A DNA stretch of 59,597 nucleotides from Acetobacteraceae bacterium (GTDB lineage: Bacteria; Pseudomonadota; Alphaproteobacteria; Acetobacterales; Acetobacteraceae). The DNA is taken from NCBI GenBank assembly GCA_025354865.1, contig JANXMB010000001.1, positions 1-59,597 on the forward strand, read 5' to 3'. Below the pieces are notes generated by a model. That model saw only the letters and a program-made list of their open reading frames with translations, made no database searches and was not told where the DNA came from. A program made the position numbers and the translations under genes. Numbering within the stretch: position 1 is the stretch's first letter; each line of letters starts with the position of its first letter. This document shows positions 44,273-48,242 of the stretch, in pieces.

Positions 44273-44335
44273 CATCCTCCCGGCTGGTTGAATGCCACTT
44301 ACAGTAACGAAATGCAGAACGACAGGATAACCCGC

Positions 44336-44947
44336 ATGGCCGAAGTAGAGTGTTTTTTCGATTGTTCCAGCCCCTGGACCTATTTTGCGGTCCATAGCCT
44401 GCTGGAACTGCGCAAGGAAACCGGCGCGACGATCGCGTTTCGCCCGCATCTGGTCGGTGGCGTGTTCAACGCCGTGAACCCGACGGTGCACAATTCCCGC
44501 GAAAAGCCGGTGGTGCCGAAACAGGCTTACAGCAAAAAAGACCAGCAGGACTGGGCGCGTTTCCTGGGCATCGCGATGCACTACCGCCCCACCGTTTTCC
44601 CGGTGAACAGCGTGAAGATCATGCGCGGATGTTGTTGGCTGGAAGGGACCGACCAACTCGAACCGCTGATGATGGCGGCGTTCCACGCGTATTGGGGCGA
44701 CGATCTGGATATGTCCAAGGACGACGTGCTGACCGAAATCTGCAAGCGGGCGGGGGTCGATCCGGCCGCCTTCTTCGCGGCGATCGGCGAACAGCCGAAC
44801 AAGGACCGGCTGCGCAATAACACCGATGAACTGATCGCGCGCGGCGGGTTCGGCTCCCCCACCATATTCGTCGGTGGCGACGACATGTATTTCGGCAATG
44901 ATCGCATGCCGCTGATCCGCGATTCGGTGCTGCGTCACCGCACATGA
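44336..44947 (+). CDS. 2-hydroxychromene-2-carboxylate isomerase/DsbA-fold protein
   Basis: A 203-residue kappa-class glutathione transferase relative. The N-terminal VECFFDCSSPWTYFA carries the active-site Ser-Pro of hydroxychromene-carboxylate isomerases, and GSPTIFVGGDDMYFGNDR is the cis-Pro region. Such enzymes act in naphthalene-type degradation with glutathione. The ATG at 44336 has AGGATAA upstream. It overlaps the disrupted enoyl-CoA hydratase by four bases. Confidence 0.84.
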   Translation: MAEVECFFDCSSPWTYFAVHSLLELRKETGATIAFRPHLVGGVFNAVNPTVHNSREKPVVPKQAYSKKDQQDWARFLGIAMHYRPTVFPVNSVKIMRGCCWLEGTDQLEPLMMAAFHAYWGDDLDMSKDDVLTEICKRAGVDPAAFFAAIGEQPNKDRLRNNTDELIARGGFGSPTIFVGGDDMYFGNDRMPLIRDSVLRHRT

Positions 44948-45120
44948 TCCGATCCCGAATCGACCCTCGGGGTGTCGCGCTGGTCACGGTGGACAATGCC
45001 GAGCAGCGCAACGCTTTGGGGAATGCGGGGAAGCGGGAATTGGCGGAGGCGCTGGAAGCCGTTGCCGCCGATCCTGGCTTGCGGGTGGTCGTGCTGACCG
45101 GGTCGGGCGATCGCTCGATT
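44944..45120 (+). pseudogene. Enoyl-CoA hydratase, 5' part (gene split by inserted islet)
   Basis: The frame begins MIRSRIDPRGVALVTVDNAE and matches the crotonase N-terminus up to VVLTGSGDRS, where homologues continue into the oxyanion-hole region (FIGGANV). Here the sequence changes near 45117-45121 and meets a stop at 45159. The missing continuation reappears at 46633 in the same sense. The ATGA overlap with the upstream isomerase shows it was once a regular operon gene. Confidence 0.85.
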
Positions 45121-45320
45121 TCCGGTCATAACTTCCCGCCTCCCGGATCACGCGAATAAAAACCCGGCACTTGTCTTCAAGAGCTTGAATCCCGCGCGTT
45201 TGGCCGTCCCTTCGGTCATTTTTTTGGAAACCATAAGGCTCATATACCATTGTCTGTTGCCCGCAGGCTCGTTGGGTCCGCGCAGGCCACCCTCGTTCAA
45301 TCGTGGCGCACATCGGAAAA

Positions 45321-45491
45321 TCATCAAGCGCACACGAAGTGACACGGTGTTTGAACGGAGTTGCACGGAGAGGGATTTTCAGGCCCGGGGGCGAGAAAAC
45401 ACCGCCGGTTGGATTAAAAATCCTGAAATTACCAACTCATTGCGCCGAACGTCTATCTCGTTTTCCGTGTCATTTCGTGTGCGCTTGATGA
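45321..45491. repeat. 27-bp inverted repeat around a 117-base loop
   Basis: The arm at 45321-45347 (starting TCATCAAGCGCACACGAA) is the reverse complement of 45465-45491 with one mismatch. The arms contain CACGAAG/CACGG-like runs that recall dispersed intergenic repeats of other proteobacteria. The structure could be a miniature element or a structured RNA. Confidence 0.75.
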
Positions 45492-45775
45492 CTTTCCCGC
45501 AAATGGCACCACTGCGCGGGCATGGCCACAGCCGGTGAAGCAAGTTCTACCCGCCGTCCGATTTCAACAAATAATGCATAAGAGCCAACCATAATGCCTT
45601 GAAAAGGCCAGGCAGACCCGGGTTTCCGAAAGTCCTGCTTCGAGCACAGGCCCTCTACGTGCTTGACGGATACAGGGCAACGATATGTTTCGGCCCCCTC
45701 ACGCCGCGTCCAGGGCGGCGGCGCGGTTGGCCGAACGGCGGATGAAGGAAGCGCTCAAGCCGAAAGCGACCGGCA

Positions 45776-45809
45776 TGCGCCTGCGATCACGCCAAGGATC
45801 GCAGGCGCA
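45776..45809. repeat. Perfect 13-bp hairpin in the islet
   Basis: TGCGCCTGCGATC (45776-45788) pairs without mismatch with GATCGCAGGCGCA (45797-45809) over an 8-base loop. No T tract follows. It lies about 150 bases upstream of the PEP-CTERM gene and may end transcripts entering from the left or mark an old element boundary. Confidence 0.65.
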
Positions 45810-45956
45810 ATTCAATCGAGCAATGTGTCGGAAAACTTTACATCTTTGGAAGATGATTCCGGATGTGGTTTTGTAACCCGCTGTCACTGTTGGTAATGTT
45901 GTGATGGCATCATATTTGCATATTCAAAATAGTGTTTTTCGATTGGAGTTTAAACC

Positions 45957-46613
45957 ATGCATGCTCGTTTCTTCCCCCTGTGCGCCGCACAAACCAATAC
46001 CGTGATGGCACGTTCCGGTTCTGCCCCGGGTCGGCCTTCGCTGTCGTCATCTGCGGGGACGTCAAGAATATCCATACCAACCCGGGCAAGACTCGCCATT
46101 TGCGGCGCTTTGTTCTGGATGGGGGTCCTGGTCGGCGTGGTTGCGCCAACGACCGTGATGGCCGCGAATACGACCTGGAGCATATCGTCGAATGCAATTT
46201 TCGGCAATTATTATCCGCTGTCCGGTTCATTCACGGTTGATTCCTCGGGAGTGCTTATTTCCGCCGATTTGGATTTCCATAATACCTATACCAACCAGGA
46301 TGACATCTTTTCAACCAGCTCAAATGCGACGATCGGGTTCGCCACAAATAACCGGTTCCAGGTTAACAGAGCGGTTTCGGAGTCGTTTGGAGCTGTCCAG
46401 CTTACTATTAACCTTACTTCTGGCGAAACATTCGCCGATTCGGTCACGACGTTGCAGCTATCGAGCAGCAGTAACGCCCGTACCAACGGTTGCTGTAGCT
46501 ACCTGAATTCGGCCGCCTACATTACCAACGATTCAATCCCCGAACCCGCCTCGCTCGCGCTGTTTGGCGTTGGCGCCGCGGTTCTCGGCATGGTTCGCCG
46601 TCGTCGCGCCTGA
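45957..46613 (+). CDS. PEP-CTERM sorting-domain protein
   Basis: A 218-residue predicted exported surface protein. A long basic/Ser-rich leader is followed by a hydrophobic signal segment (about 46-68) ending VMAANTTW. The mature part is Ser/Thr/Asn-rich, with a paired Cys motif (NGCCSY). The C-terminus is a textbook PEP-CTERM signal: PEP at 195-197, a short transmembrane stretch, then RRRRA. Exosortase would cleave and anchor it. The ATG at 45957 has GGAG about ten bases ahead. No exosortase gene is in the window. Its function is unknown. Confidence 0.85.
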   Translation: MHARFFPLCAAQTNTVMARSGSAPGRPSLSSSAGTSRISIPTRARLAICGALFWMGVLVGVVAPTTVMAANTTWSISSNAIFGNYYPLSGSFTVDSSGVLISADLDFHNTYTNQDDIFSTSSNATIGFATNNRFQVNRAVSESFGAVQLTINLTSGETFADSVTTLQLSSSSNARTNGCCSYLNSAAYITNDSIPEPASLALFGVGAAVLGMVRRRRA

Positions 46614-46632
46614 CGAACCGAGATGAATCTGC

Positions 46633-47232
46633 TTTATCGGCGGTGCCAACGTTTCGGAAATGGCGACCTTCACCCATGGCCATGCCAGCGAAGGCCCCGC
46701 CCTGACGCACCGGGTGTGCGAGGCCATTCGTCGCACGCCGGTACCGACGATCGCCCGTATCAATGGCTATTGTTTCGGGGCCGGGCTGGAAATCGCAGCG
46801 TCCTGCGACATGCGGGCGGCATCCGATACCGCCCGGTTCGGCATGCCGGAGGTGTTGTTCGGCCTGCCGTCCGGCATGGAAGCCTGCCTGCTGCCGCAAC
46901 TCATCGGTTGGGGCAAAACCCGGGAACTGGTGTTCACCGGCCGGCACATCGACGCCCAGGAAGCCGCCGCCTGCCATCTGGTGGAACGGATCGCGCCGCT
47001 AGCGGAATTGGATGCCGCCGTCGAGGAATGGGTCGCCGCCATATTGTCGGCCGGTCCGCTGGCAATCCGAGCGCAAAAGGAATTGATCCGGGATTGGGAA
47101 CGGATGTCGATATCGGACGCGGTGCAGGAAGGGATACGCGCGGTCGCGGCGGCGCATGGAACGGATGAAACCAAACGGCTGATGGGTGCGTTCGTTGCCC
47201 GACGGCGGGCGAAACGAAAGGACAGCCCATGA
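46633..47232 (+). pseudogene. Enoyl-CoA hydratase, 3' part (gene split by inserted islet)
   Basis: The crotonase sequence resumes at 46633 as FIGGANVSEMATFTHGHASEG and continues through the second oxyanion-hole motif NGYCFGAGLEIAASCD and the C-terminal helices to KRKDSP. An internal ATG at 46660 could start a product of 190 residues, but it would lack the first CoA-binding strands and part of the oxyanion hole. Its stop overlaps the following amidohydrolase by ATGA, so read-through coupling of that gene has probably been altered. Confidence 0.85.
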
Positions 47233-48242
47233 ACTGCCAATGCGGTCGCCGCCATCTGATGTTGGGCGCCGGGGCCGCTGCCCTGTTCGGCCCTTCCGCC
47301 ACCCAGGCGGCCGGCGGTTATCGTCGGATCGATGTGCATCACCATGCCGTGGCGCCGGCGTACCTCGCGGCGGTGAAGGCGGCAAAACTCGACAGTCCGC
47401 CACTCAACGATTGGACCCCGGCGCGATCGCTGAACGACATGGATTTGGCGGGCATTTCCACCGCCATGCTGTCCCCCATGCCGCCGCAAGTCGGTTTCCT
47501 ACCCGCCGCCGAGGCCGCCCAGGTCGCCAGGGAATCCAACGAATGGGCGCGTAAACTGGCCGTCGATCATCCCGGTCGTTTCGGGGTGTTTGCCATGCTG
47601 CCGCTGCCGCATATCGACCTGAGCCTGCAAGAAATCGCCTATGCGTTCGATACGCTGAAGGTCGATGGGGTCGGTATCATGACCAGCTACGGCGACAAAT
47701 GGTTGGGTTATCCCGAATTCGCACCGGTCTTTCGCGAATTGAATCGACGCAAGGCCGTGGTCTACACCCATCCCACCGGGGCGAATTGTTGCGTCAATCT
47801 GGTGAAGGGGGTTCCCGATCTGGTAACGGAATCGGGCACCGACACGACCCGTAGTATCGCCAGCCTGATCTTCAGCGGGGCTTCGGCGAAATACAAAGAC
47901 ATTTCGTTCATTTTCTCCCACGGCGGCGGCGTCCTGACCGCTGTGGCGGAACGATTCCGCATCCAGATGGTTAACCCGCCATACAAAAAAGACATAACGC
48001 GGGCGATGGTCGATCGCGAATTGAAACGGTTCTTCTACGATACCGCCCAGGTCGCGAACGAGGTGACGATCGAAGCCTTGGCCAAATTGGTCGGTATTTC
48101 GCAAATCGTGTTCGGCACGGATTATCCGTATCGCACCGGGGCAGAACATGTCAGCGGACTGAAGAAGCACGAGTTTTCGGATCAGGATCTGGCGCGCATC
48201 GACAGCGGCAATGTCCTGCGCATCCTGCGTAAGGGGTTTTGA
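47229..48242 (+). CDS. Amidohydrolase family 2 protein (ACMSD-like), exported
   Basis: A 337-residue metal-dependent hydrolase or decarboxylase. After a leader with a twin-arginine-like pair (CGRRHLMLGAGAAALF) comes the metal motif IDVHHH, then VYTHPTGAN, IFSHGGG and the metal-site Asp in FGTDYPYR. Relatives decarboxylate aminocarboxymuconate semialdehyde or hydroxybenzoates. The ATGA overlap ties it to the disrupted enoyl-CoA hydratase, so it originally belonged to the same catabolic operon as the isomerase and glutathione transferase. Confidence 0.83.
   Translation: MNCQCGRRHLMLGAGAAALFGPSATQAAGGYRRIDVHHHAVAPAYLAAVKAAKLDSPPLNDWTPARSLNDMDLAGISTAMLSPMPPQVGFLPAAEAAQVARESNEWARKLAVDHPGRFGVFAMLPLPHIDLSLQEIAYAFDTLKVDGVGIMTSYGDKWLGYPEFAPVFRELNRRKAVVYTHPTGANCCVNLVKGVPDLVTESGTDTTRSIASLIFSGASAKYKDISFIFSHGGGVLTAVAERFRIQMVNPPYKKDITRAMVDRELKRFFYDTAQVANEVTIEALAKLVGISQIVFGTDYPYRTGAEHVSGLKKHEFSDQDLARIDSGNVLRILRKGF

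Follow-up and report, generated by a model that had tools for sequence, protein, structure and literature searches.

How does a single gene for a PEP-CTERM protein, with an upstream promoter of its own, come to lie in the middle of a catabolic gene? The question is raised by a locus in the Acetobacteraceae bacterium assembly GCA_025354865.1, in which a gene of the crotonase (enoyl-CoA hydratase) family is interrupted by an insert of 1515 bp at positions 45118 to 46632 of the window, by which we mean the whole stretch of 59,597 nucleotides that was analyzed (contig C1, JANXMB010000001.1, of the 4.76-Mb genome G000, which comprises 190 contigs). The insert holds a palindromic element resembling a miniature inverted-repeat transposable element (MITE) and one PEP-CTERM transcription unit. 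The explanation that we favor, with moderate confidence, is a one-off capture of foreign DNA in the crotonase gene by illegitimate recombination. We know of no described route for the arrival of PEP-CTERM genes, which are scattered and variable in number, and this locus, apparently a fresh landing site with exact ends, is useful for testing how they are gained. The case as it stands is a single event, with no special mobility shown.

An exact insertion in an enoyl-CoA hydratase gene

An initial annotation, made from the sequence alone, had proposed that the crotonase gene is split by about 1.5 kb of DNA, with the left break at about 45120 and the frame resuming at 46633. Alignment with the uninterrupted genes of relatives bears out the split and fixes both ends: the gene is interrupted between codons 58 and 59, with junctions at 45117/45118 (where GGCGATCGCTCG is followed by ATTTCCGGTCAT) and 46632/46633 (where AGATGAATCTGC is followed by TTTATCGGCGGT). 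Among 20 close relatives (loci L035 to L054, 79% or more identical in the right half), the two crotonase parts are contiguous in all 20, with residue 59 directly after residue 58; the residues at the abutment are Ser then Phe, or Ala then Phe in L045. No host bases are missing at the insertion site relative to these genes. A more distant set of 18 further loci gave 11 exact abutments, two cases in which the alignments lie 24 nt apart, and five without a match to the left half. The named contigs most similar to the window crotonase carry mostly Acetobacteraceae metagenome-assembled genome labels.

The ends of the insert are exact and otherwise plain. No target duplication was seen at the junctions, the longest word common to their surroundings is 4 nt, which is also the commonest value among 2000 random pairs of 24-mers, and no inverted repeat was found at the outer ends; the junctions therefore give no support to a transposition that leaves the classical marks. 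Between the stop codon of the PEP-CTERM gene and the right end lie 19 bp, and neither end is repeated within the genome at E ≤ 0.001. The insert is indeed richer in A+T than its surroundings (54.1% G+C versus 59.5% and 61.6% for the genes on either side), and the absence of a transposase, likewise remarked upon in the initial annotation, holds for the larger open reading frames (ORFs) of the insert that were scanned, in which no transposase, defense or phage family was found (two ORFs against Pfam and NCBIfam, three against PADLOC and PHROGs). A group I or group II intron or another structured RNA was considered and rejected, as there were 0 Rfam matches at E ≤ 1 in 44900 to 46700.

Age and mode of insertion

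The favored explanation would run as follows. A foreign fragment would recently have been captured by an intact crotonase gene in a run of dsbA-like, crotonase and amidohydrolase genes. The fragment would have consisted of intergenic DNA, in which the MITE-like element was already nested, and one complete PEP-CTERM transcription unit, so that the element probably arrived together with the insert. Joining would have been by an illegitimate, end-joining-like recombination and not by a transposase at the insert ends, the simplest reading being that a fragment was taken up where the DNA had broken. The insertion would have disabled the crotonase and left the ATGA-coupled amidohydrolase gene downstream of a sigma-54 promoter. 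The FIGGAN stretch immediately 3' of the insertion point is part of the oxyanion hole in the crotonase family, and crotonase function was very likely lost.

As to age, both crotonase parts remain open, and their codon differences are mostly synonymous (98 synonymous-only and 31 amino acid-changing versus L037, 93 and 34 versus L040, compared with 78 and 24 between L037 and L040). Lineage-specific amino acid changes number 10 here versus 2 in L037 and 4 in L040, as raw counts that ignore branch length. These figures point to a young insertion and hint that selection has been relaxed.

Several observations weigh against recent capture by illegitimate joining. Classical bacterial end joining needs Ku, which was found in 7 of the 23 genomes searched and not in this one; Ku-dependent end joining, the first candidate, was dropped for that reason, and the joining would have followed another route. 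It is this step that limits our confidence. An insertion free of loss is, moreover, unusual for sloppy end joining and fits a precise recombinase. The 10 lineage-specific changes, set beside 2 and 4, may mean that the event is less recent than it looks. The case for a foreign origin is one from absence, since no donor sequence was found and few candidates were scored in the searches described below, and the assembly, at 190 contigs, is fragmented.

A PEP-CTERM transcription unit with a sigma-54 promoter

The one PEP-CTERM gene that had been noticed in the insert lies at 45957 to 46613 on the forward strand. Its product of 218 amino acids matches PF07589 (E = 6.8e-6; 26.4 bits against a cut-off of 20.7) and carries the C-terminal sorting motif, coded by 46533 to 46607. 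Upstream on the same strand are motif 1 of the PEP-CTERM regulon, TGTCGGAAAACTTTACA, a predicted PrsR site at 45826 to 45842, and, 62 nt past it, a sigma-54 −24/−12 promoter, TGGCATCATATTTGCA, at 45905 to 45920. The sigma-54 site is the one match in the window, where 0.07 was expected. The motif 1 match is circular, because the motif was built from this site and two homologues; the unit of motif 1 and sigma-54 site is nevertheless supported independently by the other loci of the genome. With up to three mismatches allowed in motif 1 and one in the sigma-54 site, 7 of its 18 PEP-CTERM loci (the window locus included) carry the unit with the two starts 68 to 80 nt apart; for two of these loci only 120 nt of upstream sequence was available. 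In 1.63 Mb of the genome, read on both strands, there are seven units besides that of the window. Among PEP-CTERM loci of four congeners, 6 of 30 carry the unit, with a start-to-start distance of 67 to 91 nt; one of these 30 gave no ORF, seven had less than 170 nt upstream, and the ORFs picked for L173 and L175 were visibly wrong.

The spacing between motif 1 and the sigma-54 site is itself structured, being 67 to 68, 79 to 80 or 91 nt start to start in 13 PEP-CTERM loci (L139, L140, L142, L144, L145, L152, L154, L174, L178, L181, L182, L187, and L189). These steps are of about one helical turn, as would be expected for an activator that has to face the polymerase.

The genome encodes the partners of such a system. 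PrsR is present (TIGR02915, 622.9 bits against a curated cut-off of 502.6), the exosortase family PF09721 has two matches, and PrsR and one of the exosortases are both on contig C171. In the published account of the PEP-CTERM/exosortase regulon, a 17-nt motif ending in TTTACA and a spacer with a mean of 62.8 nt precede a sigma-54 motif, operons are mostly of a single gene, and PrsR is the presumed activator (Haft et al. 2006, PMC1569441). The unit described here resembles that regulon in its single gene, long upstream region, TTTACA motif 1, sigma-54 site, spacer of 62 nt, C-terminal sorting motif, and a genome that encodes both exosortase and PrsR; it is unlike it in its position, which is inside a disrupted catabolic gene and not intergenic. 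A second comparison is offered by pepA of Aquincola tertiaricarbonis, for which sigma-54 dependence has been demonstrated experimentally (PMC9850573). That gene shares the −24/−12 promoter and has a predicted upstream enhancer sequence, whereas the putative terminator stem-loop described 3' of pepA has no counterpart in the 19 bp between the present gene and the junction.

Between the PEP-CTERM stop codon and the amidohydrolase gene, the only terminator-like matches listed on the forward strand form a weak, overlapping pair near 46833, some 220 bp past that stop codon. Given these and the gap of 19 bp to the crotonase remnant, read-through from the sigma-54 promoter into the downstream genes is possible. 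The initial annotation held that the amidohydrolase gene has lost its original cotranscription, but the promoter that now stands upstream of the crotonase 3' part and the amidohydrolase gene could just as well drive both, and the PEP-CTERM gene, the crotonase 3' part, and the amidohydrolase gene may all be expressed under PrsR/sigma-54 control. If the promoter does read through, one insertion would have brought a catabolic operon under a biofilm/exopolysaccharide regulator, and the locus would be a clear example of such rewiring.

Search for a source of the inserted DNA

An orthologue of the PEP-CTERM protein was not found in 39 other genomes, which gave partial or weak matches, mostly to its C-terminal end; it is the lack of an orthologue in congeners that suggests a foreign origin. 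In a protein search of 397 genomes of the family, with seven candidates scored in each, the closest homologue outside the genome itself among the best scored was 39% identical over 165 amino acids and came from another genus (G137), exceeding all matches to the protein within the window's own genus.

At the DNA level, the whole insert was searched against 33 genomes of the genus, its own included, with up to 11 candidates scored per genome. Matches in the other 32 were to the repeat element, to the PEP-CTERM coding end, where they extend up to 8 nt beyond the stop codon, and, once, to 26 nt (G013). Outside the locus itself, nothing in the 33 genomes matched the first 117 bp of the insert or its final 11 bp. 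For the part to the right of the nested element, searched in the 397 family genomes with two candidates scored in each, the matches listed were all at the PEP-CTERM coding end. Since few candidates were scored per genome in the wide searches, weaker or additional matches may have escaped.

Transport as plasmid or phage cargo was considered and rejected, as neither the PEP-CTERM protein nor the insert DNA had a match in the plasmid collection, nor the insert DNA in the phage collection. On viral contigs, none of eight pattern matches was confirmed as a relative of the protein, and an 18-nt piece taken from the insert's left end was found in none. Beyond the genus, the left 111 bp had no match in the plasmid and phage collections, in viral contigs (by the 18-nt piece), or in 2.6 Mb of retrieved DNA. 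The locus resembles cases of gene inactivation by horizontally acquired DNA in that a gene intact in relatives is interrupted by DNA that was not found in them; it differs in that the insert is without transposase, phage, or plasmid features.

A nested MITE-like element

Could the insert instead be what is left of a conventional transposon or insertion sequence (IS) after decay or deletion of its transposase and ends? We regard this as unlikely, although the insert does contain a structure of a transposable kind. A palindromic element of 350 bp at 45237 to 45586 has terminal ends that align with each other (left, GGCTCATATACCATTGTCTGTTG; right, as the reverse complement, GGCTCTTATGCATTATTTGTTG), and 0 of 5000 shuffles aligned as well. 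It is directly abutted at both ends by copies of an 8-bp direct repeat, AACCATAA, at 45229 to 45236 and 45587 to 45594, as in a target-site duplication. Seven equal 8-mer pairs, this one among them, lie 308 to 407 nt apart in the 2.6-kb region, and given such chance pairs it is mainly the exact abutment to the repeat ends that makes the duplication convincing. Some IS types, furthermore, insert without target duplication. Against these points, the element lies inside the insert and not at its ends, the scanned ORFs hold no transposase remnant, no intron or other Rfam family is present, and the crotonase parts look young, which would have left little time for decay.

The element also has inner inverted-repeat arms, a left one of 33 nt at 45315 to 45347 (forward), 94% complementary to a right one at 45465 to 45497 (reverse), which are taken to be the repeat of 27 bp reported in the initial annotation. 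The two large stem-loops described there are accounted for by this element, with its 33-bp inner arms, and by a perfect hairpin with a 13-bp stem at 45776 to 45809. Partial copies of the element occur in the congener G011, and the inner arms belong to a palindromic intergenic repeat that is found also in G011, G041 (14 arm matches), G043 (13 arm matches), and G022. When up to two mismatches are tolerated, the 20 nt at the element end are present in 2 of the 33 genus genomes, the window's own and G011, with one exact copy in each, and no further copy of the element was found in its own genome. Compared with bacterial MITEs and palindromic intergenic repeats, the element is alike in its size, its terminal and inner inverted repeats, its 8-bp flanking direct repeat, and the lack of a transposase found within it; it is unlike them in that neither an autonomous partner nor a second full-length copy was found.

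A palindromic intergenic repeat of about 180 bp, built of CACGGAGTTTGCACGGAGTT-like units, recurs in several congeners (L075, L089, L090, L097, L098, and others).

Mobility of PEP-CTERM genes

The initial annotation had suggested that PEP-CTERM genes may move as single-gene cargo by an unrecognized route. The islet would then be a mobile cassette of promoter plus gene, integrated by a recombinase acting in trans and leaving no target duplication. An insertion that is exact and loss-free would suit such a cassette, as would the compact, self-contained unit and the variable number of PEP-CTERM motifs, 18 in this genome and 9, 24, 21, and 44 in four congeners (G008, G010, G001, and G006, respectively). 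We nonetheless consider it quite improbable. Neither insert end was found elsewhere in the genus or, for the right part, in the family; the outer ends are without an inverted repeat; and the right end stands only 19 bp past the stop codon. The repeat of 27 bp, for which the initial annotation had suggested a search next to other PEP-CTERM genes, had no convincing PEP-CTERM gene beside it in any of 13 loci with matches to the element, in flanks of up to about 1.5 kb. PEP-CTERM pattern matches beside the repeat in L088 and L089 were rejected, as the hydrophobic stretch is missing.

The PEP-CTERM motif count differs nearly fivefold among the four congeners, from 9 to 44. Synteny was compared between about 1.69 Mb (about 36%) of the window's own genome, with its 18 PEP-CTERM loci, and 30 PEP-CTERM loci of these congeners, out of 98 that were listed, a sample too incomplete to settle whether the genes are cargo. 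Six of the 30 loci were assigned and the other 24 gave no assignment. For four (L179, L188, L194, and L183), one adjoining flank or more matches that of a PEP-CTERM locus of the window's own genome, so that some of these loci are stable, which also speaks against a cassette; in L183, the second flank has its match on another contig. L182 matches a flank lying about 1 kb further from the motif in this genome. L177 is a presence/absence site, with about 1.37 kb in G001 versus 103 bp here between conserved neighbors, a two-gene stretch between genes for which the direction, gain or loss, is not polarized.

At that site, L177:801-2170 stands against L326:18575-18678 (contig C136 of G000, near 33.6 kb), and the PEP-CTERM gene and one ORF are missing from the latter.

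The synteny data thus show gain or loss of PEP-CTERM genes but no single-gene unit with fixed ends, and a general single-gene mobility is not supported. What stands of the initial proposal is an insertion, into an intact crotonase gene, that carries a single PEP-CTERM gene with its own promoter; the unrecognized cargo route is not supported. It is highly unlikely that PEP-CTERM genes with their motif 1/sigma-54 promoters spread as precisely integrating, duplication-free units that put downstream genes, in this case half a crotonase gene and an amidohydrolase gene, under exopolysaccharide-linked sigma-54 control. In the literature surveyed, by title and opening of the abstract, movement of PEP-CTERM genes as units was not found as a topic, and the PEP-CTERM passages of one paper on horizontal transfer treat the presence or loss of the whole system, not the transfer of single genes (PMC4886054).

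Integrity of the assembly

An artifact of assembly, either a chimeric join or a bubble between strain variants, is a further rival explanation, and the 190 contigs and an estimated contamination of 3.56% give some ground for the suspicion. Contigs C21 and C35 share a stretch of 945 bp at 96.5% identity, so strain variants may be present in the assembly. We hold an artifact to be very improbable, however, because the genes that flank the insert match those of relatives in identity, order and orientation, unlike those of a random chimera, and because neither insert end is repeated in the genome. Two further readings, with the halves as ancient separate genes or with a native islet and displaced crotonase parts, had been named in the initial annotation as conditions that would refute its proposal. 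Both are themselves refuted by the close relatives, all 20 of which have one continuous crotonase gene, with a dsbA-like gene immediately 5' of it in 18 (the exceptions being L043, where it is 1.2 kb distant, and L052, where it was not found).

The stretch shared by C21 and C35 lies at the starts of the two contigs (L230:1-945 and L243:1-945) in inverted orientation. It contains a complete PrsR/sigma-54 promoter and looks like a strain variant or the end of an inversion.

Flanking genes and minor features

Within the insert, a terminator-like stem followed by a run of seven T lies at 45201 to 45225 on the forward strand, as a consensus match only. Terminator-like matches (6 versus 3.6 expected in shuffles) and sigma-70 promoter matches (1 versus 1.0 expected) are not clearly above chance.

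Upstream of the insert, a gene of the DsbA family with a thioredoxin fold (Pfam DSBA, PF01323, E = 8.1e-34) lies at 44288 to 44947 on the forward strand; its start is uncertain, being either TTG at 44288 or a later ATG, and its end overlaps the crotonase start in an ATGA at 44944. The crotonase 5' part, codons 1 to 58, occupies 44944 to 45117 (ECH_1, E = 2.4e-8 for the ORF at 44944 to 45159), and its frame continues into the insert to a stop at 45157 to 45159. The 3' part, from codon 59 to the stop, occupies 46633 to 47232 (ECH_1, E = 1.2e-26 for 46627 to 47232), with its earliest in-frame ATG at 46660. Against NF004795, a PRK06143-like enoyl-CoA hydratase model, it scores 227.1 bits, below a cut-off of 283 that applies to the whole protein. 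Both parts are on the forward strand, as is the amidohydrolase gene (Amidohydro_2, PF04909, E = 9.4e-29) at 47229 to 48242. Its start overlaps the crotonase stop in an ATGA at 47229, the coupling that had been pointed out in the initial annotation. The amidohydrolase gene is immediately 3' of the crotonase gene in 4 of the 20 close relatives (L035, L037, L040, and L043), and the ATGA overlap is found in all four.

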